From Brachyhypopomus gauderio (taxonomy: Eukaryota; Chordata; Actinopteri; Gymnotiformes; Hypopomidae), in the NCBI RefSeq assembly GCF_052324685.1, contig NC_135223.1:3778668-3842667 (forward strand): DNA of 64,000 nucleotides, written 5' to 3'. A program made the position numbers and the translations under genes. Shown one piece after another: positions 1 through 53,655 of this stretch; the stretch's first letter is position 1, and each line of letters begins with the position of its first letter. Below the pieces are notes generated by a model that saw only the letters and a list, made by a program, of their open reading frames with translations, was not told the DNA's origin and searched no databases.

Positions 1-987
1 GGTTTGAAGCAATTTTAAGCATTTTCTTTAACGAAGAACTCATTTCAGTTTGACTATATTCTGATGTACTGCTGTGCTTTGGGGCAATTATATGACCGTT
101 ACAATGTAAAGCAGCTTAATTGAATGGCTTTTGCAACTTGAAGCCATTTTTTTTTGGCATTTCTTTAACAGTGTTTACTTGACCAGGCGTTATCATATCA
201 GGGTACCATCTATTGATTATTATTATGCATAATTGTTTTCATTGTACAGTAAGCATAATGAATGCTGGGTTTAAGAAATGGTTACTTAATAGTAATAGAT
301 TTTCTTATTTACATTTTCTTAATTTTTTTTACTATGGTACATGTGTTTTTTTTATTGTACATATCAGGATTCTGGTGGATTCAGGTCAGATGATGCATAA
401 TTTCCTTTTGTGTGATGTCTAAAATGTCTCAGATGACACAGTGAATGGAAAAGGTGAGTCTCGTCAACAGCTTGTGAACAGCCAGGACCTGTCAGGCCAA
501 TATGCCAGTTGGCTTCTGGGATCTGTAGTCATTAAGGACATAGCATACCTAAGCTGTCATACCTAAGCTATCAAACATTAACAGATTTTTTATTAGTTTT
601 TGTTTGTTTGATTTGCTAAAAATAACAAAAGCTCATTACTGGGTTGAATAAGCAAGTTCCTTCAATAGTGATATTCATCTTAGATTAAAAATTTTAAAAA
701 GTACAATAAATTTACAGTTTATTTTTTAATTCCCTCACTATTTACAAGACAATTAGATTTTATGTATTTATGTATGTATAGTGTATGTATGTATTGTCAC
801 TATATGTATGTATAGTAACAATATTGGGGGGATCATAATTTTTATTAGTTTTTGTAAGCTCTGTTCAATCAAACATGCCACTTTAGAGGTCTACTAAAAT
901 ACCAATAACATTCCATTGCCAAAGAAGTTCAAAAACTGCCATGTGGTTGATCCATTTTCACAGAAACACATAATTAAACAGTGTTAT
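1..987. other. AT-rich non-coding DNA, no gene recognised
   Basis: This stretch is AT-rich with homopolymer runs and a TATG-type simple repeat near 765-815. Short open frames are present, but none has recognisable protein features or convincing paired splice sites. It may be intron of the ASIC gene whose last exon lies at 7387-7491, but nothing here proves that. Confidence 0.5.
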
Positions 988-1388
988 ATTATTATTAGGG
1001 GTGGGACGCGATTAAAAAAATTAATCGAATTAATCGGAAGCTTTGTAATTAATTAATCGAAATTAATCGCATTTTAATCGCATTTCAGTATTTAACATGA
1101 GAAATATTAATTTAAGTTTGAATGATGAATGAATCAATGAACATAATCATAAACTTCAACATCTTGTTTATTTTTCCACCAGTCTACTACGAAGACCAAT
1201 ATATGTGTAGTGTGCAGAAAACAGTTCAGAACATTGGAAATTCTGACCAAAAATGTTGTTTAATTTAGGGAGTTTTGCTCAGGATATTGGAAGAATTGAA
1301 GTAAATCAGAAGATGTTTTTTCATACCATTTTAGATGGTAGACTTTCTTTAATTTCCCAGGCCTCTGCCATAGGCATCTTCATAGTGC

Positions 1389-1574
1389 CTAGAAGTGGTC
1401 TTCTGCATGCTCAAAGCAAATGACTGGATCTTCATCATCTATAGATTCATCATCTATAATATGAGCTGTCACACCAAGATCATTCTTGTTGCTAACAGAG
1501 GTCCAGTGATCCCCAGTCAGAGCCACATTTGTGGCACTCTTCACAATAACCTGTTTTAATTCTTTCCTCATCAT
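1389..1574 (-). pseudogene. hAT transposase core fragment
   Basis: A 61-residue open frame carries the motif LTGDHWTSVSNKND followed by LGVTAHIIDDES, the pattern at the start of the RNase H-like core of ZBED/hAT transposases. The frame is only a small part of a transposase of about 600 residues and sits inside the hAT element at 988-2670. Up- and downstream coding sequence is lost or out of frame. No function is expected. Confidence 0.65.
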
Positions 1575-1609
1575 ACAGCTGCTGGATTTTCTTCGACATT
1601 GTCTTTCTG

Positions 1610-1715
1610 GGGTGAGTTTCCCAAAACGTTCTTAGTGCCAAGTACTTCGTCACCTCGTTCTTACGTACGAGGTTAAGAAGTACTTGGCGCTAAGAACGTT
1701 TTGGGAAACTCACCC
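1610..1715. mobile_element. 106-bp foldback (near-perfect palindrome) element, CTG-flanked
   Basis: Two arms of about 48 bp, beginning GGGTGAGTTTCCCAAAACG and its complement, form a near-perfect hairpin with a loop of a few bases. CTG lies directly on both sides (1607-1609 and 1716-1718). A shorter relative with the same arms and the same flanking CTG occurs at 57533-57579. It is inserted within the hAT element. The superfamily is unknown to me; CTG may be a 3-bp target duplication or part of the ends. Confidence 0.7.
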
Positions 1716-2011
1716 CTGGACGGTAGTTCGTAACTTGCATCAGTTGACGCAATTCGCAGCGCTTCTTGTAAGCATTTATCTTCGACCACAGAGAGCGGAC
1801 AACACAAATAATGTGACGCATCATGTATAAACGCGTGCGGAGTCGCGCGCTACGGCCATTCGCGAAAGTTTAATCCAGTCTTAATGGTCCAATGAAGGTC
1901 ATTTAAAAACCAGGACGTTTCCTCACAGGATGTGAATTACGGACGTTTGGTCACCCTATCGTACTAGGAATACATTTAGCAGCTAAGTTATCATTACTGA
2001 CCTGCGCGTTA

Positions 2012-2309
2012 AGCTGGGCGTACACTGTGCGATTTTTGGCCCATTTTCAGCCGATTTTTCACTTGTTTCGGCTCAATCGCGTGTCGTGCATCGTATAGTT
2101 TACACAGGTAAACGAGGAGCGATTCACAACTCCCGATCAGAAATCGCAGCGTCGCAAGAACATCAAACATGTTTGAAATTCAAATCGCTCCTCGTGAGAG
2201 TATCGCACTGTTGAAGCAGCTCCACGAGCCGACTCTCCCTGCGATTTAGTCGTACAGTTTGAGCTGGAGCTGAGTACACGATTTAAAATATCGCAGTGTA
2301 CGCCCAGCT
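2012..2309. mobile_element. 298-bp MITE with TTA target duplication (PIF/Harbinger-like)
   Basis: The ends are inverted repeats starting AGCTGGGCGTACACTG on the left and its complement on the right. TTA is duplicated at 2009-2011 and 2310-2312, a 3-bp TWA-type duplication typical of PIF/Harbinger elements. No open frame of its own is seen. It is inserted in the BED-finger region of the surrounding hAT transposase remnant, just after the residues LNAKHVAAK, so it is younger than that element. Assignment to PIF/Harbinger rests only on the target site. Confidence 0.7.
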
Positions 2310-2312
2310 TTA

Positions 2313-2551
2313 GCCGCAACATGTTTTGCGTTGAGGTGGTAACGAAGGGTGGAAGTGCTCCTGTGATAAGCGAACTCCTTCCTACATAAAGTGTAAATAA
2401 CTCTATTTTTGTTTGTACTTCCATCTGAAAGTTTCTTATATTTAAATTTCCCATCCACCAGCGTAGCCTCTTCAGTCATCTCCATCATGATCATCTTATT
2501 GTGTGTCCATAATCTGTATGCCCGGAACTCGCGCACTGAGAAACATTCCAC
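2313..2551 (-). pseudogene. BED-type zinc finger fragment of hAT transposase
   Basis: The frame reads a BED finger: a Cys, then RKEFAYHRSTSTLRYH and LNAKH, giving the C and the H-x4-H part of the C2H2-type BED pattern. The first metal-binding cysteine is replaced by tyrosine (VIYTLC where CxxC is expected), which one G-to-A change on the coding strand would explain. The frame then runs into the 298-bp MITE. This is a relic, not a host gene. Confidence 0.65.
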
Positions 2552-2769
2552 GGTGCAAAAGTGTCTCGTCCGTTAAATGCGTTAAAATGCGTTAATTTTT
2601 TTAGTGCGTTAATTTTCCTGTAATTAATTAATCGAAATTAACGCGTTAAAGTCCCACCACTAATTATTATATTCTTTTAATTAGCAAAATAGTGCTATTA
2701 GCGCTTGTAGTAACACAGAACACTCACACAAGAACTGACAAAGACGTAGATTAACTCACATACTTAAAT

Positions 2770-3711
2770 CAGGGTTCATACACTTTTTTGATAATTAATT
2801 TCCATGACTTTTCCATGACTTTCAGACAAATTTCAATGACTATACATTCTCTAAACATATGTGTAGACATGAAAAATAAGAAAAAATTCAGGCCAAAATT
2901 CCACAGTATATCATAAATTAATGAAAAGCCACGTGGTTTAATTGAAAAAAATAAACATTTACCGTATTTTCAATATCAATATAAGTCGCAACTACAAAGC
3001 TGGTGAGTCCCCGCTTAACAACGGGTCTGGTTAACGACGGACCAGAGTTACCACCAACTTTTCTTAATTTCGCGCGGAGGTGCAGTGGCAGCACTGTTGA
3101 GTGTTGTGGAGTGTAGTGGAGTGTTGTGTACGATAAACTGAGGCAGCGCGATCGCTCTCTCATGCTGTATGCACAAGAACGTTGTTAGTTTTTTCTATAC
3201 TGTATTAGGGATTAAAGTGTATCTAAATCTAGTCACGCTTAACAACGAAAACTGCTTTACGACGGACATTTCAGTCTCTAACCCCATCGTTAACAATTGG
3301 TTAACCACACTGTGCACATTTTGCACGCGTCCTTGTCTTTCACAAGCCACAGCTTGTATTTGTCCAACTGAAGCAGCCATTGTTTAATCGGCATTTACCA
3401 GCATTACGCTGATTTACATGTCATCAAAGTACAATCTACAGCTCCGCTTGGAGTCCGACGCTAACGCAGTGAACTAATGTGTGAAGTTACGTTAGTGGTC
3501 CGCACAATGAAAAAAAAAATGGCTATATTATATATATTTATTTTTTCTTCTGGTTATCGGAACGACATACATTTATTGTGTCAAAAAAATTTCCATGACT
3601 TTTCCAAAACATTTGAGTATTTTTAGTTTTTCCAAAACTTTTCCAGGCCTGGAAATTGCTATTTTCAAATTCCATAACTTTTCCAGGTTTTTCATGACCG
3701 TATGAACCCTG
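2770..3711. mobile_element. 942-bp non-autonomous DNA element with CAGGGTTCATAC ends
   Basis: The ends CAGGGTTCATAC (2770) and GTATGAACCCTG (ending 3711) are perfect 12-bp inverted repeats. Sub-terminal sequence rich in TTCCATGACTTTTCC is repeated near both ends. TTAAAT flanks both sides (2764-2769 and 3712-3717), so the target duplication looks like 6 bp. Short frames inside resemble nothing I know; a block with CGCTTAACAACG-type repeats (about 3010-3300) may be a further nested element. The superfamily is not settled; hAT-like ends with a 6-bp rather than 8-bp duplication are atypical. Confidence 0.7.
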
Positions 3712-3719
3712 TTAAATAC

Positions 3720-4609
3720 ACAGACACAACCAAGACATGATGTTGATGAGACAAGGAACAGGTGCTATGAATAACACAGATACATACTGGAACACACAGA
3801 AGGACATATATGGACATAGAAGGGCGCAACAACGAACAGACGCACATGCCCGAAGGGAGGAGTCAGGGACTGCACTGTGACATCATGACGTAGTCTCCAA
3901 AATTCTATGTAATTCAATATACTGTACCATTAAAAAGTGATGGTGGCGTTACTGCGCCAGTGCCTTAGCAGACCTTCTGTTAGTCTAAACTTACAATGTA
4001 TTAAATACTCATTAATGTGTTTGCATTAAATGTATTTGCTATAGCCTAGGCAAGCGTCTGATCCTGCTGATAGAGGAGAGCTGAATGGTTACTGTGTGCG
4101 CAGCACTGTCAAATATTGGCCTGGAATAACTCATTATTTACCATCATTCATCACCTATAAAGACATTTTCTCTGAGATGACAGCTGCTCTCTAATCACCT
4201 GCATACAACTTCACCTGCATACAACATACATCTAAATATAAAAATCTCTGAATAATGGATTGTTTGAAATACACTTACTGCTGGTACATAAAAAAAAAAT
4301 ATTACTGTGCATTAAATTTCACAAAAGTCAATCTTGTTTTGGAACAGATCAATTATCATTATCTACCCCACATTGTATAATTTTGAGTTGTCCAGGACTA
4401 GGCTCAGTTCGGTTTCACTTCTGCAAACTCAGAACATGAAGTTCTTGTACTGGTTTTGACCTGATGGGGAGAGAATCCCACCCTGGCACGAGTGGGTGCT
4501 ATGTTTCTGTCACTTGAGTTTTGACATTACCTCAGGCTGAGCTGAGACCGAACCGAGCCCACACCAGGTTTGCTCATCTTCATCTTTCTCATCATCGTAT
4601 GTGTTCCAG
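3720..4609. other. non-coding stretch, no gene recognised
   Basis: No recognisable coding sequence, RNA gene or complete repeat is seen. An exon-like segment with plausible splice sites (4610-4662) follows and is considered under the ASIC tail exons. Confidence 0.4.
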
Positions 4610-4871
4610 GAGTACTCCGAGAATCAAACCAGCCCTGGTGTCACATCTAACCATGTTCCCAGGTAGCAGCACCATTGGCAAACCTGCAATTACACTTCAT
4701 TCTCTTAATCTGTCCCAACACATACTCATTAGCATCTCATTCTTTCATCTTCCTTTTGATTCTTCTTCAGTATATTGTTTTTTTTTTCTTTCTGAAACCA
4801 TAAATGAGTACAGGTAATCTGTCATTTTCTAACATTCTAAGAAACGTTTTTCGAATCCTGTAGCTTTCAAG

Positions 4872-5275
4872 ACGATGATGATGATTTGAACAAGTTCAGG
4901 TAAAATGAATAACTATTAAAAATGGATTAGTTTCTCCCCTTTTTTCAGCAGTCTGTGTCACTGTCTTGGTCCTCTTTCCCAAAAACTACAGCTTATGGAT
5001 GTTTGTGCTAAATAGATTTCTTAAGCAAACATGAAGGAAATAACCTAACAATGATGCCATGTGATGAAATTTTTTGAAACATGCACTAAATGTTACATTT
5101 CAAAACTGCACAATGATCTGCAAATTCAGTTTTATTGACCAAAATTACTACATATCATGGCATCGGAGCTTTTGGGAAATAGACATGTTTGTGACTACAA
5201 CTTTTCCTTTCTTCTTTTTTGAATTTTTTTATTAGATATGAATATGCAGACAAACCCTCCAACATCGAGCATGTG
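4872..5275 (+). other. two possible small exons of the ASIC cytoplasmic tail (tentative)
   Basis: Two short segments, 4872-4899 and 5236-5275, each have an AG before and GT after, and the second has a good pyrimidine tract. Spliced together they stay open as DDDDLNKFR then YEYADKPSNIEHV and end in phase 0, the phase needed to enter the exon at 7387 in the ASIC1-like frame. The second segment holds ADK and an acidic/basic stretch at about the place where ASIC1 has SSADKG before its final conserved tail, which is weak support. A further candidate, 4610-4662, also joins in phase. With so few residues this is inference; they could be chance. Confidence 0.3.
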
Positions 5276-5379
5276 GTGAGGAGACTAACTTGAATTTCTG
5301 TTGTCACAAAGTGTAGAAAAAGATTCAGAGCTTCTTTTAGCGAAATGTATTACCAAAGTAATCCTGATTCCCACACAGC

Positions 5380-5510
5380 AAAATACCCACGGTTAAATTA
5401 ACACCTACAGTGTTTACGTAAATACAGTTGGACACAAATTAATATGGTAAGAGGTCATTAAATACCACGGGTGTTAATTCAGCACTGGAAATTTTACTGT
5501 ATTTCTTTGA
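5380..5510. repeat. possible small MITE with AACAC-rich motifs
   Basis: The block begins CACACAGCAAAATACCCA and contains GTGTTAATTCAGCAC and a TTTTACTGT-type end, resembling a widespread teleost MITE whose ends read as AGCAAAAT. The inverted ends here are too diverged to define exact borders or a target duplication. Confidence 0.3.
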
Positions 5511-7386
5511 TTTGATGAATGAATAGCATTATTAAATTTGCCAATTGTACTTGTGTGTCAAGTGCCAAGGAGTAAGGTGAAATATCTTCAACTGAAAGGA
5601 TCTAAAGCTTTTGTAAACTACGTGTTCACTTGGTGCTTATATGTGTCCACTGGAACTTCACTTGTGCAAATTGGCATCTAGTGTCAACACGCAACATTCA
5701 CAATAGTGGCAAATGAGAAGTTCAGCACATCTACACTGGGGTCACATCTTTCTCACCCTAATGCTTTCACAGCTGAAAACAACAAAGTGTTTCCAACAAT
5801 TTACCTAGAGGCCATGGTGTTTATTTAGTGGTTTCAGTCATTTTACGCTTGAAAGGTCAGAGTTTTAAATTAACATTTTCTAGTGGTGACTGAATTGAGC
5901 TTAAAACACTGAAAGCATAATTACTTACTATGGGTGGACTCAAGGCGCTACTGATGTGTCTCAACTGTAAATGAATATCTATAACCCTTAAAGAAGGTAA
6001 AAAGGTTTTAGTGCTGAAACAGGTTGCTCTAAACTGCAATAACCTATTTGTGTTGGTAAAATACTGAACGGTAATTGTGCTGATTCTTAACTGATGGTCC
6101 TCCAGCATCGTTATATAATACCAGAAGACATGTTTAGTCATGGAATGCCAGTAGTCTTACCTGTTAAACGCAGTACTGGATATCTCATTTGGGTTTACCT
6201 ATGCCAGATGGGTAGCAGTATTTCTTGTATAACAGCTTATTAGATGTTTATTAGATATGAGTATCTGAATCTCATTTCTTCTGATTGTGACAAAAAAAAT
6301 CATTTAAAACTAACTGCAGTCTGCCAGTTTAGCTCAAACATACTGCATTAATGCAAGAAATGATCAGTATGTAAACCCATTTCCAACTCCAAGACCAACT
6401 TGCTGTTCTTACATATTGAATCATGAATCCCTGAATATATGCTGCCTCTTTTGCACCTTAGGTATGGATTGAGTTATTAGTGGGGAATCTTGGGAGTGGG
6501 ATCCATTCTATGCATCTAAATCTGAGCCTGCAAGGCTGCAAAGGGTGGGAATGTCTCCTCTGCACAAGAGGGATCTTATTAAGCAAAGTAATCTTTTGGG
6601 ATCACAGAATCTGCGTGAACTAGGTACTGAAAGAGATTGCCATCCTGAGCCTTGGCAGAGAACGTTGCACTTGCGAATCATGCCCTGTAAACAAACACCC
6701 CACATGTGTCAGAGTGGAAGCAGCAAGCTCCCTATTGGTCCACCCAAGGCATTGGGATGAAGCCAGCATCGAATAGCATCACTAGATGCATTCCTTTGTG
6801 ATGCCATTGCAGGTCTACATAAAATGAGTTTGGACCCAGAAAAAAAGAAATTGTGTTTTTAAAGATGTTTCAATTGAGATGCTTATGTTGGGCCAGATAT
6901 CTACAGTGTGTTGTGATCAGGCTGGCTGTGTATTCTATGAAGGTGTAGTTGATTGGACCGTACTAAAGTCTTAAGTCCAGGACTAAGAAAGAATGTCTTC
7001 TCCCCCCTTCCCTTTCATGCATACTCAACTCCATTCATCACATCTCTTGTACTTGTCTGTCTCCCTCTGATATATAAATATTCATATGGGGCTGGTGGGG
7101 GGGGATCCCAAACTTTATCTGTCATAACATGCATGACCACATGATATTTGTGCAATCTCTGAACCATGCTTTGCCTGTGGACGTTTTCCTTTGTGTGTGT
7201 TTTGTGGTATCTCTGTCAACTCCCTTCACGTCCCCCTGTGAATCTGGTCCAATCCCATTCCCACATCTCTGTGAACTCGCATCCCTCGCACCGCTCATTT
7301 AAATGCGCCTCCTTCCGGCAATGTCATCGACTCATTGCACAACATCTGAACTCCTCTCCCCTCCCCCCCACTCCCTTCTCCTCCAG
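5511..7386. other. non-coding stretch before the ASIC terminal exon
   Basis: No exon could be named. A frame at about 6484-6760 stays open (87 codons, including WDPFYASKSEP) but has no recognisable family and its opposite strand is also open. The immediate upstream sequence of the 7387 exon is a strong C/T tract ending in CTCCAG. Confidence 0.4.
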
Positions 7387-7491
7387 AGCACATGCGACAC
7401 ACTCCGGAGTCACTCGGACAGCCTCAGATTCGCGCCGAACATGCTACCTCGTCACCCGGCTTTAGGCAACTTTGAGGAGTTCGCCTGTTGA
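7387..7491 (+). CDS. acid-sensing ion channel, terminal exon encoding the cytoplasmic C-terminus (partial gene)
   Basis: This is the last coding exon of an ASIC (proton-gated, DEG/ENaC sodium channel). After the strong acceptor CCTTCTCCTCCAG, frame 0 reads STCDTLRSHSDS, then NMLPRHPALGNFEEFAC and a stop. That matches the conserved ASIC1-type tail, from memory CESLRGH...NILPHHPARGTFEDFTC. Frame 1 of the same DNA reads GVTRTASDSRRTCYLVTRL then stops at 7463-7465, closely matching the mammalian ASIC3 tail ending in TCYLVTQL, a PDZ ligand. The channel core (two membrane segments, extracellular domain) is not found in the window and probably lies upstream. By position beside atg9b, abcb8 and cdk5 it corresponds to mammalian ASIC3. 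Which frame is used depends on the upstream exon; the tentative exons at 4872-5275 would select frame 0. Confidence 0.75.
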   Translation, partial: STCDTLRSHSDSLRFAPNMLPRHPALGNFEEFAC

Positions 7492-8968
7492 TGACGCAGG
7501 TGTTGGGCCACGACGAAGATAGTTAGGGTTTGACAGCAACTGTGATGTAAACTCATGTACTCCAACCCACCTGTAAGTTCACACCACTATACATAAAGAA
7601 TAACTGAAATCACTGTTAGTAGATCAATGCCTGAATACAAACGCAGACATCACCATAAGTACAAATAGATTAAAATTCTAAAGACAATTATCAGGTTTTA
7701 TTAGCATAACTCAGTATCATCTTAAAGCCTACTGTTTCATGTTAAAATATTAGTACAATTATCAAAGAGATTTAGAGGGACAGTGTTTTTGTGAAACAGA
7801 TATGAACACCTTGGATTTTATTTGAAGGCTGTCACTGAAAATAAACTAAAGTGTCACACCATCGCACAAAATCCCAGACTGGGTAAACTGGCAGCAAGTT
7901 TAACCTTTGGCCAACAAGTTTTTATGAGTATATGGTATGATGGAAAAGACTCTCACAGTGTTGAAAAGAATGAGGCTGAAATTATTGAAGATGTTTGTCT
8001 GTTTAAATGTATATAAGTGCAATAATATGCATAATGTTTTAGTTAAACAGATGTATTACCCTCCAGTCTGAACTATTAATTGTCAAGAGAAAAGAAATGA
8101 AAAAGAAAACGAGTGAAATTAGAATCTGGTTCAACTCTCTCTCTTAACAGTATTCTACTTTTCATATGCATTGTATTTCTGTTTGTCTCTTTAATTTTAT
8201 TGCCAATATATTTGGGCATTGTCAAACACGTACGACATTTAAAGTTTGTCATACAGACATTTGTGTGAGTAGATTCAGGTTTTAGAGCATCTTCATGTGA
8301 CTATAGTTAGTTCAGTTCAGTTATGGCCCAATTAAGAAACTCCCACATATTAAGCTGCTCAAACCAAACCTGTGAATAAATTTCACTGCTTGTTATAATC
8401 CACGCTTAAGCGAGCTCAGTTCTGTTCAATAATCACCTGTCCCACAGTCTGCTGTCTGCGAGTGAGGGCAGTGCCGATTTACATTTGTGAGGTTTAAAAG
8501 TGACAGGATGTGGACAGTGTTTGATATTCTTGAAGCTCCCATGATGTTCATGTTAAACCACACCAAGCATATATCAAACTTTTCCATTTGTGGTGAAATC
8601 CACATTTACCACAGGAGTCTTCCTCTCTACCCTGCATGCTCATGTCTACACACACAAAAAGCCTGTTTGGTTTGATTGCTTGGTCCGTGCTCAGACCACA
8701 GCAGAGTGAGGGACAGCATCACCAAATGTTCTCAATTTCGCTTCTGCATTGAGCTATACTGTATAATTGTTTTGTTTTATATCAACTATAATGTGATTTC
8801 TAGCACATATATACACATTTTAAAACAGTCAGTGGTGAAGTGTAAATTAACCTATATAATAAACAATATATTTAACCATCTCTTAAAGAAGTGTTTGTCC
8901 CAGTGTCTGTCACTACAGGTAGCAAGTGAAAATACAAAAAGCTCCTCGTGTTGATTTTCCCTTATCAG
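7492..8968. other. ASIC 3' flank, no gene recognised
   Basis: AT-rich sequence between the ASIC stop codon and the retrotransposon LTR; it probably includes the ASIC 3' untranslated region. Small open frames are not supported by any motif. Confidence 0.4.
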
Positions 8969-9743
8969 TGTTACGACCCGGCCTAGGCTACCGGATCGTA
9001 ACAGGTAAAGACGGAGAAATATTTATGATGAAGGAAAATGTGTATTTGTGGCGGGACAATAGGCTTCAGGAGTTGATATGGCTAAAAAAAAATAACAACT
9101 TGGAAACACAACAGAATGGCTAACTTCCTATTTGACAGAAAGAATAAAGAAAATATACAAAAACCTACCCTAACTCCCTAACCTTAAACAGAGGACAAAA
9201 CGGAACAAAAATAGCCTCAACTCCCTACGTCCCAACCACTGAGAAAACCCAAGAAGTGAATATACAGGCTATGTACAGTGTGCTATATACAATAGGCGAC
9301 CAGACTTATATTGAGGGGGGAAACCGTAATCGTAGTCAATGGAGAAGCGTAGATCATAGCCGACACAGAATCCAAAAATACATCAACAAACACTTCCACA
9401 CATACACTCAGAACACCACGAACAAACTGTCTTAACCATACAAAAATCTCAAAATGCGAACCACTCTTAATCTTTCCTTCCTGCCACCCTCCTTGTCTTC
9501 ATTCCCGGGCCGGTTTAAGTAGGGTTGATGACAGCAGGGGCAGCCAACGGGATTGTCGCAAGGTAGTGGTGTGACGCCAGACAGCCAACGAACGTCGACA
9601 CCGTTGCAGCGGAGCGCGATTGGACGCGTTGCCTGGGGAAACAACTCACACACACAACGTGCGGCGCTCACACATAGCGTGCGCTGTGACAGCCCTAGTG
9701 AACTATATAGAAACACTTCTACATCGACCCCAGGGCCGTAACA
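8969..9743 (-). repeat. 3' LTR of the Gmr1-like element (775 bp)
   Basis: On the minus strand the LTR begins TGTTACGGCCCTGGGG at 9743 and ends CCGGGTCGTAACA at 8969, giving the usual TG...CA ends. A purine-rich tract (complement of CCCCCACCCAT, 9744-9754) lies directly upstream, as expected for plus-strand priming. The far end carries a 35-bp imperfect palindrome (8969-9003). Because the 5' LTR is lost, the 5-bp target duplication cannot be confirmed. Confidence 0.75.
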
Positions 9744-9763: not shown

Positions 9764-11308
9764 CTAGGGGGTCCCAGCACGAGACAAACAATCCGCCACA
9801 ACATTTTCACTGCCTCTTTTGTGTTTGATGTCCAAATTAAAATTTTGGCAGATTAAAGACCACCGCATCAGTCGTTGATTGGTGTTGGACATCCTGTACA
9901 GAAACACAAGAGGATTATGGTCGGTGTACACAGTGATTGGAAGGGCGCTAGAGCCGATGTATACTTCGAAATGTTGAATGGCGAGTAGTAGTGCGAGGGC
10001 TTCCTTCTCTATTGTACTGTAGTGACACTGATGGCGATTGAACTTGGCTGAAAAATATGCAATGGGGTGATCGACACACAAAGCATCCTCCTGTAACAAC
10101 ACAGCCCCACAACCAGTCTCACTGGCATCAACCTCTAATTTGAAGGTCTTTGTGAAGTCTGGGGCGGAAAGGACAGGAGACGAACACAACAACCGTTTTA
10201 CGGCCTCAAACGCCGACTGACAGGTGGGGGGCCACTCAAATGTGGTGGACTTACGTAATAGGTTTGTAAGGGGTAGCACAACATCCGAGAAGTTTCTGCA
10301 GAAACTTCTGTAGTACCCCGTCATACCGAGGAAACGCCTAATCTCCCTCTTGCTTTGTGGAACAGGGAATTCAACAATAGCTTGAACCTTTGCTTCTACT
10401 GGACGAACCACACCACGGCCTACTCGTTTCCCCAAATAGGTCACTGTGGCATGACCAAACTCACACTTAGCGAGGTTTATGGTCAAACTCGCCTCCTGGA
10501 ATGTGAGAAATACCTTCTCAAGAGTATGCATGTGTTCCTCCCATGTGTCGGTATATACAATGACATCATCTAAGTAAGCGTCACATCCCTCAATATTCGT
10601 TAACACACTGTTCATAAGTCGTTGAAATGTCGCCGGGGCGTTTTTCAACCCAAAAGGCATAACAGTGTACTGCAGAAATGTACCAGGAATAGCAAATGCC
10701 GAAACCTCTGAGGCCCTTTTGGTTAACGGAACTTGCCAATAGCCCTTGAGCAAGTCGAGTTTTGTAACGAACTGTGCATTACCTATTCGATCCACGCAGT
10801 CATCTATACGGGGGAGTGGGAATGAATCAGTGGTTGTTACAGAGTTGACCTTTCTATAGTCTGTACAGAACCGAAAAGTGCCATCGGGTTTAGGCACCAG
10901 CAAGCAGGGTGAACACCATGGACTGGAACTAGGTACAGCAAATCCATTTTTCAACAGGTACTCAACCTCCTGTTTCATAATAGCGTGTTTAGTTGGGTTC
11001 ACTCGGTAAGCGTTCTGTCTCACCGGTGTGTTAGTCCCGACTTGTATGTCGTGCTCAATGACTGAAGTTCGTGAAGGTATGTCAGCGAACACAGAGAGGT
11101 ATTTATGTATCAGACTTACGACAACGTTTTGTGCTGACTCAGGAAGATGCTGTAACATAGAGGGGAGTTCTTTTAAGGATTCTGAATTGGACAGACGAGC
11201 AGAAGGAAGACCGGTACCACGAATAACTAACTCATCCACCTCAGGAGTGTATTCAGAGGAAACAGGGGTAACCAACAAAGAAGGCAACGTCATCCTCGGC
11301 AACGTCAC
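9764..11308 (-). pseudogene. retrotransposon reverse transcriptase-RNase H region
   Basis: A 514-residue frame contains the Ty3/gypsy reverse transcriptase blocks in order: LVPKPDGTFRFCTDYR, LDLLKGYWQVPLT, PFGLKNAPATFQRLM and the catalytic YLDD (as AYLDDVIVYT). It is followed by the thumb/connection and RNase H (VDASETGCGAVLL, EKEALAL, VYTDHNPLVFL, then VVADCLSR). The active-site residues appear intact. It overlaps the integrase frame by 56 bp in another frame, so either a frameshift mutation has split one pol polyprotein or the element shifts frame. The start codon given is simply the first Met. Confidence 0.85.
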
Positions 11309-13001
11309 GTGCTACGTACGGCTTAAGCATATGACAAACGCGGGTCTTTTTCCTGCGGTTTGGCGTGTTTATCACATAGTCTGTGTCACTTAGACGGGAC
11401 TCAATAACAAATGGTCCTACAAATCTCGCTTGTAGGGCAGAACCGGACAGTGGTAATAGAGCAAACACCTTGTCTCCCACGTTAAAACAGCGCGGTACGG
11501 CACGTACATCAAAACGAGCCTTCATTCGGCCCTGAGTTTTATTAAGCGCCTGATGTGCTAGAGCACATAGTGTTCTTAGACGTTCACGAAACTCACTAAC
11601 ATAATCAAGAACATTAGTAGGAGCGGATGGAGAGGGATCAGGGGTTAACATTTCCTCCTGCAAAACCTTCAGCGGACCTCTCAAGGTGTGTCCAAACACC
11701 AATTCAGCTGTGCTAAAACCAAGCGACTCCTGCGGAGTGGTCCGAACAGCGAATAAAAGAAGTGGTAAGCCTGTATCCCAATCTTGTCTGTGGGATAGGC
11801 AATACGTCCTTAACATGGATTTAAGGGTCTGGTGAAACCTTTCTAGGGCACCCTGTGACTCTGGGTGATAAGCACTAGATACCTGATGACGAATTCCCAT
11901 TTGTTTCATGGCCTTTTGGAAATATCTGGACATAAAATTTGTTCCTTGATCGGACTGTACATGTTTAGGGAGACCAAAAGTGGTGAAGAATTTAATCAAC
12001 GCGTTCACTATCGCGGGAGCCTTAAGGGAACGAAGGGGAACAGCCTCAGTATAACGGGTGGCAACACACATAATGGTCAACATATAAACATATCCTGACT
12101 TCGTTTTGGGGAGTGGACCCACGCAGTCAATGAGAACGCGCTCGAAGGGTTCTCCACACACCGGAATAGGTTTTAAAGGGGCAGGCGGAACCACCTGATT
12201 CGGTTTACCAGCCACTTGACACACATGACATGAGCGACAAAACTGATTTACATCCCGTTTCATCATGGGCCAAAAGAAATGTCGCAACAAACGTAGATAC
12301 GTTTTTCTAACACCTAGGTGTCCAGATAAAACATGGTCATGAGCAAGACTCAAAACGTGGGACCGATATGGTTGCGGTACGACCACCTGATGTACAGTTC
12401 TCCACTCCTGATCCGTGCTTGCATCAGGAGGAGTCCATTTACGCATCAGAACACCGTTCTCGAGGTAGTAGGCTACTGAACGCGTACTGAAATTCCCATC
12501 AGTTGATACGCTTGCTATACAAGTGGATAAAGTGTTGTCTTTCTGCTGTGCCTCAATGAGTTTGTCTCGGCCAAGAGTCGATGTAAATGAGTCGAACGGA
12601 CACGGTTCGGTTTCATTCGAATCCGTGGTCTGTGTAGGTGTATCACTGCACATAAACGAATCGGATAGTCCATCGACTTCCGCGTATTTTCGTGCCTGGG
12701 CTCTGGTGAGCACGCACGTCTTAAAAACAGAAGGAAATTCCGTTAACAAACTGTCTGAAACACTCTCCTCTGGCTCTGACACGACTTCAGGGGCGGACCA
12801 ACCCTTACTACCCGCCAAATCGTTACCGAGAATAAACGTTATTCCATTCACCGGTAATTTCTCCCTCACAGCAACCCTAACCATACCGGTAACTAACTCC
12901 GAGCGCAAATATATATTGTGCAAAGGAACTCTCAACACACGCAAGTCAATACCTTGCACCAAAACATCCGAGTCACACGTTAACAACAAACACGTATGCA
13001 T
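11253..13001 (-). pseudogene. retrotransposon protease end and integrase
   Basis: The 582-residue frame opens with the tail of a retropepsin-like region (GITFILGNDLAGSK) and continues through a linker into an integrase. The zinc-binding HHCC domain is visible (HDHVLSGHLG then CRSCHVC). The core has the DDE residues in VLIDCVGP, SDQGTNF and PESQGALERF. A C-terminal GPF/Y-type motif follows (ARFVGPFVIESRL). The protease active site and gag are missing because the element is truncated near 13001. Lying 5' of reverse transcriptase, it shows the Gmr1-type order. Confidence 0.85.
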
Positions 13002-18900: not shown

Positions 18901-21900
18901 TCGGAGAGGAGGAGCTGGGCAGAGGGGAGGAGCTGGGTGGAGGGCGTGTCCTGCTGCACCTTCTCCCGCACATGGCTGATGAAGACGGAGCTGTCCTGTG
19001 GAGGCTGCCAGCGCGGGTTCTTCAGGGTGAAGTGCATGAGCGACAGCTCCGTCTTGCCGTTCTCCGCCTGCTGGTAGACGGAGGCCTCCGTCTGGCCCTC
19101 CGACATCCACTGGGCAGGAGACAAGACACGTCAAACTGTGATCGACCTGGAGAAGCTACAACTGCACGTATCACACATTGGTACTTTACAAGTTAGGACT
19201 TAAAGACTTGAGGTCTAGCACTGGCTTCAGAACTTCTGAATCACTCTCAAATCACCCACTCTTCTCTCTCTCTCTCTCTCTCTCTCTCACTCACTCACAC
19301 ACACACACACTAAATCAAAAGGCCATATACTACAGCCATGCAGACCTGTGGGTTGCCATGACGGCGGACGTCCATCTGAGCGAAGGAGCAGATGTCGCCG
19401 ACGCCCACCACCTCCACGGTGAAGTTGCGGAAGAAGTCGATGATCTCCAGGGACTTGTTCCGCAGGAGGAAGATGAGGATGAAGGGCGTGACGATGGGGC
19501 TCAGCAGCTCCTCCAGTATGAACACCTGCAGGAACCCAGCACCAAAACCCCTGACTCGCATCTTCACAGGAAATCACCAAATGACTAATGACCGTGCGGC
19601 GAAGATGACCGACATTAAACCAAAACCGACAAACAAAAACAACAACTATTCCTAAATACAACCAAACATCCCAAACTTCCAGTGATTCTGGTGGTGGTGG
19701 TGGTGATGATGATGATGATGATGATGATGAGTAACGGGCTCTCACCGCTTTGTACTGGAAGAGCTGGGCCATCTCGTCTCGCGTCTCACTCTTGTGAGCG
19801 CTGCCCTTCCAGTGGTCCGGCATGTAGTGGATGTGGGCCAGGACACACTGTAACAGCTGCTCCGGGCACCACACCATATGCTCGTCCGGGATAAAGGACC
19901 TGAGAGAAACCACACACCATGTAATACACATCCAAGGCCATCGCACTGCTGCTGAGACCACATCAACAGTGTAATAACCCTTTTATTCACTACTAATCAT
20001 AATTATCATAATTATTATTATTATTATTATTACAGAACTCTCTACCGTGTTTTTAAAGTTAAGAAAATACCTAGTCTGAGTCTAGTCTAGTTGTTACAGA
20101 AAATGTGGCCTTAGCATTCTGCCAAAACTGCTAAACCATGTGCACATCAGGTTCAAGAGAAACCTCACCCAGACCAGCATCTACTGGAAGTTTTTGACTT
20201 TTGAAATGGCACAACTACTGGGTTTAGTTCACGTGCATGTGTGCCTTAACCCACATGATGCAAGAACACAGCAACCGCACGTAGTAAAAATAAGAAAAGG
20301 CGATCTTCTGGCGTTAACTCTAAACTCATCTAGGGTAGTGACAGTGAAAATGGATTTTCAATTGCTTGTTTCCGTTGGCAAAGATTTTACATTGCTGCTA
20401 AAATGTCATTTGCATAAACTGTAAACTCTCTAAAGCGATTCTGGGTAAAACATTGCGACTGCTATCATTTTTTCTGCAGGACCAATTATAAACAAATCGA
20501 TGGCTTTAATTAAGAAAATCAGCCGATGACCTATTTCTGAGACGCTGAAGCTCACAGAGAGCTGAAAGCCCCTCCCCCTCGTGCAGGACCCGCCGGCGAC
20601 GGTGATGACTCACCTGGTGATGGTGATGACCACGCCCAGCACGGTGATGGCAGTGAGTATGTGCTGCACGGTCAGCACGTCCTCGTCGTAGACGGTGAGC
20701 GCGATCAGCACGGCGAGCACGGAGCCGGAGAAGAACGCCACGTTCCTCGCCAGCACGGCCAGCAGCGGCGACACGAAGGCGTTCATGTACCGGGCGGCGG
20801 GCTTGTACCCGCGGCCCATCCTGCCTTGCAGCTCGTGGTCCAGCTCGTTGAAGTGACGCAGGTAGAGGCGTCCGTAGAGGGACCATCGCCGCGCCCCCAG
20901 GCTGCCCGGCTCGCGCTTGATCACCTCGGCGTAGCTGAAGAACGCGTACAGCACCTGCCAGACCAGCACGAAGGGGCAGAGCAGTAGATTGGCCACGCCC
21001 ACCAGCAGGATGACGCGGCTGAGCTGGCGAGACAGCTCCAGGCGGTTCCCCGCCCGCTTGTACTTGGGATGCAGGTTCCACTTGTTCTGGAAGAGCGAGC
21101 CAGGCCCCCAGAAGAGGATGAGCTCGAAGTTGTACTTCAGGCCCTGGGTGAGGAAGACCACGTCGCCGAGGAAGGGCAGACGCAGGCGCACGGGCAGCAG
21201 GGACTTGTTGATCATGGCCACGGTGTAGTTCTTGAAGCGCAGGATGCGGTGGTAGATGTCCAGCTCGGTCAGCTCCTTCTTGTGGATACAGATCTGCTGC
21301 TCGCGCTGCAGGCTGATCAGCCGGCCCTGCACCTCCTGCCAGCTGAAGTTGCACAGCTCGTCCTGTCGGGGAACGGTTCACAAAGGCACGGCGGTGACTC
21401 GCGGCTCTCGCTCGCGCTCCGGGCGTTCGTTCGGTTCGCGGGCGTTTCGCAATCGAACCGCGCGCGACGGTTATGCGGGTGTTCCGCCGAGACGTTTCTC
21501 TGAGCGTTTCTACTGCGTGGCTCGTCCGTTTGGTTCGTTCACACAAGCAAGTCGGCGAAAGCAGCATGCTTCACTTACCATCCTGATCTTCAGGGCTTTT
21601 GTGTAAAACTGACGGATCTCCCAGTAGCTCAGGACATTGCAGATCACCTTCCCCAGACGATAGATCCAGAAGATGGCCGCCATTATGAGAAGGAAAATGA
21701 TCCAGCTGTTGCCTTGGATCCTGACCAGAAAAGGCGGATTGTGATTGGTTGACCTCATCGTGTTGGGAAATGTTTACCAATCTACTCTGCACTTCACTCA
21801 GTGACCTGATGGACACCGCCAGCTTCAGGGGACCAGGAGTTTATGAGATCCCTAGATCCTCAATGCCCATGTTACAGACACCACCAATACTGACATAATA

Positions 21901-45057: not shown

Positions 45058-45428
45058 CAATTTAAAAAACGCCTTGTGCATATCTACATTCCACCCCATC
45101 CCCCCAAAAAACCTAAAGTAATATTCCAGGTTTGGAAATTTGCAGGAATTCATATCAATATAAAAAATTGGACGACTTTTTAATTTGTGTATGTGGTGCT
45201 GCATTGGCTAAAATCACGACGGGTTCTCTGGTGTAAACAAATGACGAGTCCGGCTCCGGCGGATTTGAGCTGTTCTATTGGATGAGGCGCCGTCGTCGTC
45301 CACTCGGCGCACATTTGATTGGACGATGGACTCGACGCTGTTTCTGGTCCCTCCCCAAAGGGAAGCGACACTGGACACTGGACTTCTCCGTCCATGGGAC
45401 CGACGCTGCTGAAGTTTCTGGAGTAACG

Positions 45429-48400
45429 ATGAGGTACACATGGCCCAGTTTTCTCTGTCTCGCTGTGTTAATATTCGTTACTCGTTCTGCAAACGGCGAG
45501 TTTCAGACTTTGGCGCATTTGCGACCTAAAGCGAGCGACGAAACGCAAGCCAAAGCGGTGTCGGGTCTGCTCGCCCGGCTCCTGGGGAACTGGTCCCGAG
45601 ACTTCGTCGTGTCGGTCAACAGAACCCTGTCCAAGGACGGCTTGGACGTCTGTGAACTTCGGTCTACAGAAAACCACCAAGTCGTGGCCGTCGGAAGCAC
45701 AGGCGTGGCTCTGGCGGCTGGAATTAATCACTACCTGAAGTATTACTGCAGGTGTCATGTGTCGTGGTGGGGAGATCAGCTCCGTGTGCCCCGACCTTTG
45801 CCTCACATCACAGGTGTTCTCCGCATCAACACCCAGCACAGGTGAGCAGACGGGTGAGGTCACGCAGGTGAGGTCAGACAGGTGAACAGGCAGGTGAGGT
45901 CAGGTTGTGTTTGATCATTTGGCCATTGTTCATGAAACCTTTTTATACTCGTTAGACACACATGAGCAGAACACACACACACACACACTCACACTAAATT
46001 TGTACAATTCAATCAAGACGTGACCTACTGGTACACTCAATTGGCTCTGGCCAAATACTGCATTGGAGTCTTGTTTTCCATTTGTAATTGTCATTTCCTC
46101 AACAACACTCTTTTGGTCGTGCTTTATGTGGCTGTGTTCCCCTGGATCTTGTGTGTGTAGGTTCAGGTACTACCAGAATGTGTGCACACAGAGCTACTCC
46201 ACGGTGTGGTGGGACTGGCCCAGATGGCAGCGGGAGATAGACTGGATGGCACTGAGTGGCATCAATCTGCCCCTGGCATTCAATGGACAAGAGGCGTTGT
46301 GGCAGCAGGTGGGACATCTGAGAAATGAACCGGAGTGAACGCAGCCTTACAGTGAATGAACTCTCTAGGCCTGTAGTTTCATGTGATATATGATGACTTC
46401 ATACGATATGATGTCATATCATAACATGTCTGTCTCTGTCTCTTTCGTTTGTTTTATGTGAAGGTGTATTTGTCCCTGGGTCTCAGTAAGAAGGAGGTGG
46501 ATGAGTTTTTCACAGGTCCTGCATTTTTGGCGTGGAATCGGATGGGAAACCTGTTTGAGTGGGCCGGACCACTTCCTGAGTCCTGGCACATTAAACAGCT
46601 CTCTCTGCAAGTATGAGTTTTCCAAAACCCTGCCTAACAGATGCTCACTGAGTTGTTAGTTTTGCAGGAACACACATTAAAGACGTATCGTGACAAATTT
46701 GTCTAACATGGTTAGCTGAAACTTTGAGTTTTAGGCCAAAACCTTATCGACTTTATACCCTCCAGAGTAAAATCTTGGATCGCATGAGAGCGTTTGGAAT
46801 GATCCCTGTCCTGCCCGCGTTCTCTGGGATTGTGCCCCATGGAATCACCCGGTAATCTGAACATACTCTCCCTCCCTCATTAATAACTAATACAGAACTG
46901 GTTAATCTAAGATTTTCACGACGTTCACTTTGATCAAAACCACATAATGGCCATAAAATATGGGTTTTGTCAGTAATCAGTACCATGTATATATTGTGTG
47001 TGTGTGTGTGTGTTTGTATACATTGTGCAGTATCAGCATTATTGCAATATTCTTCGTCCATATCATACAGCCTTAAATCTAATTGTTTAGAAATGTTCAC
47101 GAGGTAAATCCTGTCATATTCTATCCAGTCTGTTTCCCCAAGCGAACGTGACCAAGCTGGGCCCTTGGAGTCATTTCAACTGCAGCTATTCCTGCGCTAC
47201 CGTCCTGGACCCACGTGACCCGCTCTTCAGGCGAATCGGCGCTCTCTTCCTGTCCCTGGTGGTTAAAGAGTTTGGTACAGACCACATCTACAACACGGAC
47301 ACCTTCAATGAGATGAGCCCCTCCTCCTCAGAGCCCACATACCTGGCGTCGGTCAGTCGTGCCATATTCGCCACTATGACCTCAGGTGACCTCGAATCGC
47401 CCAAGTTTTTATAACACAGCGCTCTTCCAGTTCAAACCTTGACCACAGTCTGTTTCCCAGTAGAAGTATTAAAGAAACTGCTAATCCCACATCCTACTGG
47501 AGCCTTACAGACCCCGCCCCGCCCCGCCCTGCCCCGCCTCTCTCACTCTCTAACTCCTCTTTTCATTCTGCATTTCCCTGGCAGTCGACACCGAAGCGGT
47601 CTGGCTGATGCAGGGCTGGCTCTTCTTCAGCGACCCGGACTTCTGGAAGCCCCCTCAGGTTCGAGCCCTGCTGCACGGCGTCCCGCTGGGCCGGATGATC
47701 GTGCTGGACCTGTTTGCCGAGTCCGCCCCCGTGTTCCCCCTCACCCGCTCCTTCTACGGGCAGCCGTTCATCTGGTGCATGCTGCACAACTTCGGCGGGA
47801 ACTTCGGCCTGTTCGGGGCGGTGGAGAGGATCAACTCCGGCCCCTTCGAGGCGCTCCGATTCCCCAACTCCACGCTCGTCGGGCTGGGCGTGGCCCCCGA
47901 GGGCATCGGCCAAAACCCCGTGGTCTACGACCTCATGACCGAGATGGCCTGGCGGCGGGGGCCCGTCGACCTTGCCGAGTGGGCGTCGCAGTACGCCGCC
48001 CGTCGCTACGGCAGCCAGGAGGCAAGCCTTTCCGTCGCCTGGCAACTGCTGTTCCGTAGCGTGTACAACTGCACCATCCCTGGATACAAGAGCCACAACC
48101 ACAGTCCGCTGGTGCGCCGGCCGTCACTGAAGATGCAAACCGATGTCTGGTACGACCCGGCGGACATCTACGAGGCGTGGAGGCTGCTGTTCAGTGTGGC
48201 GTCTACCATGGTTTCTGTGGAAACCTTTCAGCACGATCTGGTGGATGTGACCAGGCAGGCGATTGAGCTCCTCACTACAGAATACTACAAAGAAATACGA
48301 GATGCGTTCAAGGTAGAACTCGAGCTTTCTCTCTTCCTGATGCTTAGACACGTTTGTTATGACATAACAGGTTAGTATTAGGGAGTAGGGTTTCTACTTG

Positions 48401-49019
48401 TGGTATATAATGAGGTACTAGTTTAAGTAGTTTTAGGGTATTGTAGCTAAACAACTGTCCTTTTGTGAGTTTGTTGTCTGTGTGCATGTGTAACTCCAGC
48501 ATGTGCCTTTATTCCCTTTACCGGAACACACAGGCTCAGAATCTGCCGGATCTCCTGCAGGCGGGAGGCGTGCTCGTGTACGGCCTGCTCCCCGACCTGG
48601 ACCGGGTCCTCTCCAGCGACGCCCACTTTCTTCTGGGGGCGTGGCTAGAGCAGGCGCGCTCGCTGGCGGCGGGCGAGCGGGAAGCGCAGCTGTACGAGGT
48701 GAACGCTCGGAACCAGATCACGCTCTGGGGCCCGGACGGCGAGATCCTGGACTACGCCAACAAGCAGTGGGCGGGGCTAGTGCAGGACTACTACCTGCAG
48801 CGCTGGGACCTGTTCGTGTCCACGCTGGTCGGGTGCGTGGAGCACGGACGGCCCTTCAGTCAGGACGCTTTCAACCAGGCCGCGCTCCAGGTGGAGAAAG
48901 ACTTCGTCTACAACCGCAGGAAGTACCCGGCCCAGCCGAGCGGGGACACCTACGCCATCGTCCGCCGGATCTTCCTCCGGTACTACCCAAACGCCAAGAA
49001 AAGAATGATGACGAGATGA
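45429..49019 (+). CDS. naglu: alpha-N-acetylglucosaminidase (lysosomal, GH89)
   Basis: Naglu removes terminal alpha-N-acetylglucosamine from heparan sulfate in lysosomes; loss in humans causes Sanfilippo syndrome B. Seven exons join to 754 aa (human 743): 45429-45841, 46161-46308, 46464-46610, 46766-46851, 47129-47385, 47585-48312, 48534-49019. A signal peptide (about 1-23, ending RSANG) is followed by the N-terminal GH89 domain, the barrel and the helical C-terminal domain. Diagnostic motifs: [43 protein letters not shown] and [15 protein letters not shown] (the two blocks thought to carry the catalytic glutamates), [12 protein letters not shown] and [16 protein letters not shown]. Asn-X-Ser/Thr sites such as NWS and NRT fit a glycosylated lysosomal enzyme. 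AATAAA lies at 49068-49073. coasy follows in the same orientation. Confidence 0.96.
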
Positions 49020-51364: not shown

Positions 51365-53655
51365 GTCTCTGTCTCTCTGTAGATAAGGTTTTAAGAGAAC
51401 TGATTGAGCCATATACGCGCCGTGTGCAGAGGCTCCGGGAGTTTCTGAGTGATGTCAAGCCATCTCTACAATACGACATGGTCCCTCTGTCTGACCCGTT
51501 TGGCCCATCGATCACAGACACCCACCTGCAGTGCATCGTGGTCAGCGAAGAGACCAGGAGAGGCGGAGAGGCCGTCAACAGGAAGCGAGTAGAAAATGTG
51601 AGGTTTTGATTGGCTGCTTAACAGGAAGTATGTGTGTTCAGGAAGAATCGCCTGCAGTTAATATGTAAAATAGACGGGGTTTGTTGTCATGAATATCTGG
51701 TCAGGATATGCAGAACTTTTGGAATAAGTTGGTGAGAAGCTCAGAGTTCAGATTTCTTCTGTTTCGCAATGTGAGTCTTTGTCCAAGATTGATATTGGAG
51801 TGGGTGTGTTTTTAGTTAGTCAGTAACTTCAGGGTAAAATTTGAGATTTTTCACAGTTAAAATTGCACCTTGGTGACACATTAGAGCTATTTTAGTGTTT
51901 TTTCTTTTCCAACTGCCTTCTTCAACTGTTACATGTGACTTCAGAGCAGACAGTACTTCGTTCAGTATTTATTTATGTTCTAAACTGAGTATTGAAGGGA
52001 AATGTTTAACATGATGCTGTTTCTGATGTTGTACCAATGGTAAAGTTGATTTATTTCTTATGTCAGTAATTCAGAGTGCATGGAGTTGTGATCACCTCCC
52101 ACCACAGTGTGGCGCCACTGCTTCTGAGCGCTCATGATTGTTGACTGGCCTTCATGTTGCACAGGGCCTGTCGGAGCTGGTGCTGTTCGAGATCCCCCTG
52201 ATCAAAGACGCACATCACACAGACATAGAAGAAGAGAAGATTAGCTCCTCCAGCCTTCGCGCACGTCTGCTGGGCACCCTGCTGGCCCCGCCCCCGGTAC
52301 CGTTCATCTAACGTAGATGTAGGCCGTGTGGTAGAACTTAAGGGGAGGCGCGGGAACCGTTGCTTTATTGAACATGTTGTCACGTCACAAACCTCTGAGC
52401 AGTAATGTCCCCTGACGTACTGTCTCCTGTCTCAACAGGCCCGACCTGCTCTCCCTCGGGTCCCGTACGTGATCGGACTGGCGGGGGGCAGCGGGAGTGG
52501 GAAAAGTGCCATTGCGCGGAGGCTAGAAGGACTCGGAGCCGTGTGGATCAACGCAGACCAGCTCGGACACGGGGCCTACCTACCAGGCTCCGCCCCCTAC
52601 CAGAAGATACTGCAGGAGTTTGGTCCAGGTGAGCACAAAAGGCTGGGGGACATGTCGGTCAGAAACAAAACCGAAGAAATTATAAGAGCGAGTGAACAAT
52701 ATAAATTAGATGATGATGATGATGATTTGACGTCAAGGCGTAAATGGTTCTTCTTGGGAAACATCAAATTTTCAGGGTTTCGGCGAGGTGAGTCCTCACA
52801 GGGAAATCTGTGGCTGACTTGAAGATACAAGTTAGATACCTCATACAGTTAGACGGGTCTCCCTCATTCCTCATACAGTTAGACGGGTCTCCGTCATTCC
52901 TCATAGAGTTAGACGGGTCTCCCTCATTCTCTTTGCTGGTATGTCTCTGTTCCATAGCTGAAGTATAGGCTTCGAGCATGAGACCTTCTGTAGAGGCTGT
53001 ATGAACTCACGCTGTTTGAAGCCTTTCTGGTGGTAGGGTTGGGGGTGGTGGTGGTGATGGGTGGTGGTAGGTGTGGTGGTAGGGTTGGGGGTGGTGGTGG
53101 TGATGGGTGGTGGTAGGTGTGGTGGTGGTGGTGGTGGTGGGTGGTCGTGATGGTATGGGTGGTGGTGTGGGTGGTGGTAGGGTTGGGGGTGGTGGTGGTG
53201 GTAGGTGTTGTGGTGGTGGTGGTGGTGGTGGTAGGTGTTGTGGTGGTGGTGATGGGTGGTGGTGGTGGTGTGGGTGGTGGTAGGTGTGGTGGTGATGGTG
53301 GGTGGTGGTGGTGGTGGTCAGATCTTCTCTTTTTCACACAACAGCTGCTCATCTGTGTGTCTTCTCTGTTAGATGTTTTGAATGAGGATAAAACCATAGA
53401 CAGACGTGCCTTGGGCAGGATGGTGTTTGGGAACAAGGTAAGATGCAAAACACCGCTTGTTTTTAATAATGTCTAAAATAAGGGCCTGTGTGTATACAGA
53501 CACACACACACACACATATAGAGATATTTATAATTGTAGTTAAGTACACTAAGTTTCTAGAGCTGCTAATTCAGTAGCACTTTGCTTGCACAGCTGATGG
53601 ATCTCTCCTGTTACTCTGGAAACATTGTGTACTTCACTATAATTTATAATATCCA

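Follow-up and report, generated by a model that had tools for sequence, protein, structure and literature searches.

The last exon of a probable ASIC3 gene in Brachyhypopomus gauderio may encode two channel tails in overlapping frames

The terminal exon and its two readings

The window is the whole stretch of DNA analyzed here, 64,000 nucleotides of the Brachyhypopomus gauderio genome (C13:3778668-3842667 in an assembly of 796 Mb and 840 contigs). Its first part holds the terminal exon of an ASIC gene (Table 1), and the rest of the exons of that gene lie just outside, from C13:3766730 to 3778465. Downstream of the ASIC gene and ATG9 are NAGLU exons and an exon for a dephospho-CoA kinase (CoaE) domain, at 45237-49019 and 52406-52819, and the CoaE domain exon perhaps belongs to CoA synthase. 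Positions 9764-13001 of the minus strand carry open frames of an LTR retrotransposon whose integrase frame precedes that for reverse transcriptase/RNase H. This order is opposite to the one usual in Ty3/Gypsy elements and is known from Gmr1-like elements.

Table 1. Features of the ASIC locus and its neighborhood, in positions of the window
Feature	Position	Strand	Remarks
ASIC terminal exon	7387..7491	+	acceptor CAG at 7384-7386; phase-0 join to penultimate exon C13:3778397-3778465 (outside the window)
Frame 1, ASIC3-type tail VTRTASDSRRTCYLVTRL-stop	7409..7465	+	same protein in tandem copy, C13:3673015-3673086
Frame-0-only end, GNFEEFAC and stop	7466..7491	+	3' of the frame-1 stop
AG-free zone before the acceptor	6992..7384	+	AG at 6990, next at 7385
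Weak candidate 53-base cassette exon that would switch the terminal exon to frame 1	4610..4662	+	acceptor 3.3 bits, donor 0.5 bits; in both copies open and of a consistent phase
ATG9 exons	~19370-21785		

The terminal exon can be read in two frames. Frame 0, from 7387, gives STCDTLRSHSDSLRFAPNMLPRHPALGNFEEFAC and ends at a TGA (7489-7491), and frame 1, from 7388, gives AHATHSGVTRTASDSRRTCYLVTRL and ends at a TAG (7463-7465). The codons for NMLPRHPAL in frame 0 (AAC ATG CTA CCT CGT CAC CCG GCT TTA) and those for TCYLVTRL and a stop in frame 1 (ACA TGC TAC CTC GTC ACC CGG CTT TAG) are overlapping bases. When frame 0 was compared to the PDB, the matches at an E of ≤10 were to four distinct sequences, all of them ASIC1 (E of 5.4e-6 to 1.5e-5, query residues 2 to 33), and 16 of 32 residues were identical to ASIC1. 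Frame 0 is thus an ASIC1-type tail, and the exon is homologous to that which encodes the ASIC1 C terminus (…NILPHHPARGTFEDFTC). Frame 1 had no PDB match at an E of ≤10. It did, however, match the tail of human ASIC3 at 13 of 18 residues, with the alignment running to the final residue (E of 6e-6 in a tblastn search of the window). Rodent ASIC3 presumably ends in VTRL, as does the fish reading, and the -T-R-L end would make the frame-1 tail a class I PDZ ligand. TCYLVTQL is given as the distal C terminus of ASIC3 in passages of one paper (PMC8555555). The first-pass annotation had assigned the two tails in this way and had pointed out that the same bases spell both, and each of these observations holds.

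A search of the genome with the frame-1 tail returned three scored matches at an E of ≤10, namely, the terminal exon, its tandem copy, and a site at C8:27018305 that was dismissed as chance (E of 1.56). A scan of the viral_contigs set with the DNA pattern of the overlap gave one stretch (L047), a chance match within an unrelated open frame. Judged by its letters, the exon contains two overlapping open frames, each with recognizable homology, as a dual-coding exon would.

The gene and its tandem copy

Several features were used to judge which ASIC gene the exon belongs to, and together they make an ASIC3 orthologue probable. The penultimate exon, VFKDKVLKYTRKDRSRRSTSDNL, aligns VFKDKVL..STSDNL to VFRDKVL..SSTNL of human ASIC3 (46% identity over 28 residues, E of 0.001), and its two scored genome matches at an E of ≤10 were the two C13 copies only. 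One of the first exons (L002, at C13:3747162) shares 49% identity with human ASIC3, compared to 43% for ASIC1b, 39% for ASIC1a, and 38% for both ASIC2 and ASIC4, and at its other end the gene carries, in frame 1, the ASIC3-type C terminus TCYLVT[R/Q]L. Moreover, ATG9B presumably adjoins ASIC3 in human, and the ATG9 of the window is the more ATG9B-like of the two ATG9 loci in the genome (280 versus 256 bits against ATG9B and 416 versus 487 bits against ATG9A), yet ATG9A scores higher for both. Finally, the genome has a separate ASIC1 on C1, with first exons of the 1a and 1b types and an ASIC1-type tail of its own. The body of the channel is less clear. Body exons are nearer human ASIC1 (116/143) than ASIC3 (95/143), an excess that we attribute to rapid change in human ASIC3, which has the longest branch of the tree. 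In that tree of the channel body (146 columns), human ASIC3 is the nearest to the locus with a support of 31, which does not settle ASIC3 orthology.

Two very similar ASIC4-type loci, at C222 and C4:10790000-10868000, have first exons that score equally, which possibly reflects an unmerged haplotype contig. For zebrafish, passages of a 2021 review name relatives of asic1, asic2, and asic4 and also cite ASIC3 immunostaining of hair cells (PMC8388743).

The ASIC3-like locus is tandemly duplicated across C13:3549599-3786158, and a second copy of the terminal exon, in which both tails match, lies about 113 kb upstream at C13:3673015. The first-pass annotation is therefore corrected on two points, the probable identity of the gene as ASIC3 and the presence of this second exon. 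The first exons of the two copies are complementary, alongside exons common to both: a 1a-type first exon (L001) is in the upstream copy, the ASIC3-type first exon (L002) is in the downstream copy, and a third type is open upstream (L005) and interrupted by an in-frame stop downstream (L009). It looks as if alternative first exons have been split between the copies.

Constraint in the overlap and routes into frame 1

Four bases of the overlap distinguish the two copies of the terminal exon. Each of these differences is silent in frame 1 but replaces a residue in frame 0 (R-G, A-T, R-S, and A-T; 4 of 34 residues). The probability that a random change is silent in frame 1 is ~0.30, and 4/4 silent changes have a P of about 0.008 to 0.010 under no constraint; if the frames were equally constrained, a 4/4 outcome on the frame-1 side, counting only changes that are silent in one frame and not in the other, would have a P of about 0.1, in what is a small test. 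Frame 1 looks constrained because every substitution in the overlap is silent there, and it is the better supported frame of the two today. Constraint on frame 0 at present is unproven since 4 of its 34 residues differ, and its support is long-range conservation only, including that of residues outside the overlap. The first-pass annotation had counted constraint in a single frame across fishes against itself, and on this point the outcome is mixed, with the substitutions between the two copies sparing frame 1 and replacing residues in frame 0. The overlap is not slow overall, but its changes are silent in frame 1: the copies differ at 5/397 bases before the exon, 4/79 in the overlap, 0/26 after it (7466..7491, a stretch too short to inform), and 7/204 and 35/600 farther downstream. 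In the body exons common to both copies (6 exons counted), 4.3% of silent sites and 2.6% of replacing sites differ.

Whether one frame could arise as a by-product of the other was addressed by recoding. With the frame-0 protein held fixed and its codons resampled in 20,000 trials, frame-1 readings scored as high as the observed one against the 18-residue ASIC3 tail once under local codon usage (based on 697 codons) and twice under uniform usage, and the analytic probability of obtaining TCYLVT[R/Q]L and a stop from the frame-0 codons was 1.48e-6 and 1.45e-4, respectively. With frame 1 held fixed instead (codon counts from NAGLU only), frame 0 matched human or chicken ASIC1 equally well in 37/50,000 recodings under local usage and 6/50,000 under uniform usage. 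An equally good match to the genome's own ASIC1 was found in 2,094/50,000 and 188/50,000 recodings, and this comparison is therefore weak when taken alone. GNFEEFAC, however, is not a by-product of frame 1, as these eight frame-0 residues fall 3' of the frame-1 stop.

How frame 1 could be reached was sought in the splice sites. Ending in phase 0, the penultimate exon feeds frame 0 at 7387 through a donor of 2.6 bits, the only well-formed junction found, and frame 1 requires an upstream exon that ends in phase 2. Alternative GT donors of the penultimate exon were all poor, with phase-2 sites at -3.7 bits (a site that the other copy lacks) and -4.3 bits and a phase-1 site at -1.9 bits. Strict scans for cassette exons found none. 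A lenient scan of the window copy gave six candidates that lead to frame 1 through the acceptor at 7387, and three of these, which overlap one another within 4536-4813, could be exons in the tandem copy as well; it gave two more to frame 1 through an acceptor at 7389 (4536-4662 and 6608-6623) and one to frame 0 (1283-1300). These candidates are weak and none is convincing. The 53-base candidate in Table 1 is the most exon-like of the three, and its one difference between the copies would replace a residue.

The intron around these candidates is unevenly preserved. An island at 4345-4990, which contains weak cassette candidates, is 97% identical between the gene copies (731/752 bases with margins), and much of the rest of the intron is 44 to 70% identical. 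The island has no Rfam match, and no Rfam family reached the gathering score in positions 1-9000 of the window.

Three other routes were considered and set aside. If the exon were extended upstream in frame 1, into the polypyrimidine tract (HRLIAQHLNSSPLPPTP, a tblastn match to ASIC3), no AG would be available for an acceptor, and 2 extra bases in the tandem copy break the frame. The tandem acceptors at 7385-7388 (AG AG) would take a phase-0 exon to frames 0 and 2, not 1. Finally, the strong acceptor-like sites at 4771 and 4949 yielded no recognizable tail in any of three phases.

The acceptor itself is unusual. The AG-to-AG distance before it, 395 bases, is the longest in the window (the next is 147), and in the tandem copy it is 397; both copies thus have an AG exclusion zone of at least 100 bases, compared to an AG-free stretch of about 90 before the terminal exon of ASIC1 on C1. 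In simulated 64-kb sequences (first-order, n = 200), the longest AG-free run was ≤198, and base composition predicts 11 AGs in the zone. By the passages of one study, a distant branch point can lie behind a zone of this kind, and exons with zones of at least 100 bases are more often alternatively spliced (PMC1431707). The same passages lay about half of the zones of at least 100 to chance and one zone of 369 to a repeat, a chance share that concerns zones of at least 100 and not zones of the length seen here. The AG zones of PTB exon 11 (381) and nPTB (438) in that study are akin in length to ours; its distant-branch-point exons, however, are cassette exons, whereas the fish exon is terminal and is recognized here from its AG-free sequence alone. 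The zone may be a sign of a distant branch point, and its length hints at regulated splicing. We infer that alternative splicing is the route into frame 1.

Origin of the ASIC3 tail

Frame 0 appears to be the ancestral tail. It is also present in the genome's own ASIC1 on C1, its EE/D-F-x-C ending is common to fish ASIC1, and we take ASIC2 to end in EEIAC and ASIC4 in EDFAC, both with a tail of the frame-0 type; it is on this shared ending that its ancestry is argued. Among ASIC terminal exons, comparison was made to that of C1, with the loci on C2, C72, and C222 and at C4:10.8 Mb set aside; at C4:34.8 Mb, the penultimate exon was found and a terminal exon was not found within 5 kb. If ASIC1 exons in general gave an ASIC3-like frame 1, the first-pass reading would fail, but the single C1 exon gives TFYLTIQGRG in frame +1 and has neither an ASIC3 tail nor a stop at the corresponding place. 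Mammalian ASIC3, by contrast, has the same tail as the fish frame 1, an equal stop position, and a similar penultimate exon, and it differs from the fish gene in that the fish bases additionally spell the ancestral ASIC1-type tail through to GNFEEFAC. An origin of the ASIC3 tail by overprinting in the +1 frame of an ancestral ASIC exon is well supported. Because the frame-1 tail is common to fish and mammals, overprinting would be older than their split. The first-pass annotation had proposed a frameshift across an ASIC1-type exon with both readings preserved, and these parts stand, helped by the frame-0 tail in ASIC1 on C1; its suggestion of alternative splicing fared less well, as the scans turned up neither a strong donor nor a strong cassette exon that would change the phase.

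Other explanations are less probable. Frame 1 might be the working tail in the fish and frame 0 the decaying relic of an ancestral exon, and indeed the substitutions between the copies replace residues in frame 0 and in no case in frame 1. ASIC3 split from ASIC1 over 400 million years ago, however, and long after that split frame 0 is still open to GNFEEFAC and its stop and still fed by an identified penultimate exon. We consider a relic unlikely, even though the recorded mammalian tail in passages on ASIC3 is that of frame 1 (PMC8555555). A far smaller chance is left to the converse, that frame 0 alone is used and that the ASIC3 likeness of frame 1 is chance or a by-product of conserved ASIC1 codons. 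The C1 ASIC1 exon does give a partial T-YL- in frame +1, because the codons CTA CCT are common to both exons, but the recoding probabilities are low, the substitutions spare frame 1, and the locus carries other ASIC3 features.

Alternatively, both frames could be used with frame 1 reached by +1 ribosomal frameshifting rather than by splicing. The failure to find a convincing phase-changing exon or donor speaks for such a shift, but inspection by eye recognized no known +1 shift motif, and the human ASIC3 tails are described, in passages of one paper, as splice variants (PMC7801124). Frameshifting is very improbable, if marginally less so than chance likeness.

We favor instead a dual-coding last exon in fish ASIC3, with the ASIC3 tail overprinted on the ancestral one and the choice made by phase-changing splicing, and we give this reading a probability of roughly two in three. 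Frame 0 would supply the ancestral ASIC tail ending in EEFAC, a PDZ ligand of the PICK1 type, and frame +1 would supply the ASIC3 tail ending in TCYLVTRL, a ligand of the type bound by PSD-95, Lin-7B, NHERF, and CIPP. Overprinting would have occurred before ray-finned fish and mammals separated, and frame 1 would then have been kept as the main tail in mammals. Both frames would be translated, with the choice between them made through splicing that alters the phase of the upstream exon. Perhaps the ASIC3 PDZ-binding tail was born by overprinting, fishes still encode two competing PDZ ligands (PICK1 type and PSD-95/Lin-7 type) chosen by regulated splicing, both tandem copies with their complementary first exons keep the overlap, and the new frame became fixed in mammals as the main tail; on this fuller account we are evenly divided.

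Overlapping frames with both products identifiable are, to our knowledge, unusual in vertebrate genes. Dual-coding exons that arise through non-triplet alternative splicing are nonetheless a known kind, as described in parts of one study in which, as in the fish ASIC exon, one nucleotide stretch gives two proteins (PMC13247117). The fish exon differs from those exons in that both of its products can be recognized as the C termini of paralogous channels, and the overprinted one became the tail on record for mammals; the word ASIC is absent from the main text of that study. No overlap of an ASIC1-type and an ASIC3 tail was seen among the literature matches listed, a search that left most subscription journals out of scope and in which not every query was aimed at the overlap. 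The tail of human ASIC3 isoform b probably reads DSLRLPPHLLPCHTAL, the counterpart of frame 0. For human ASIC3, three splice variants with different C-terminal domains are described, and rat ASIC3 reportedly lacks such variants (PMC7801124, PMC9612379); human variants a and b differ in their last 30 residues (PMC5893604). Parts of one paper report that PICK1 binds the tails of ASIC1 and ASIC2 and not that of ASIC3 and that PSD-95, Lin-7B, NHERF, and CIPP are partners of the ASIC3 tail, with PSD-95 also said to act via the ASIC2a tail (PMC8555555). The two frames could select scaffold partners because PICK1 and the PSD-95/Lin-7B/NHERF/CIPP group bind different ASIC tails.

If the dual-coding reading is true, the source of the distinctive tail of ASIC3 would be explained and an ASIC3 gene would be placed in a fish. 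It would also give a reading of the human C-terminal variants, the roles of which are described, in passages of one paper, as still to be determined (PMC7801124). It would further predict that splicing switches a pain channel between one set of scaffold partners and another.
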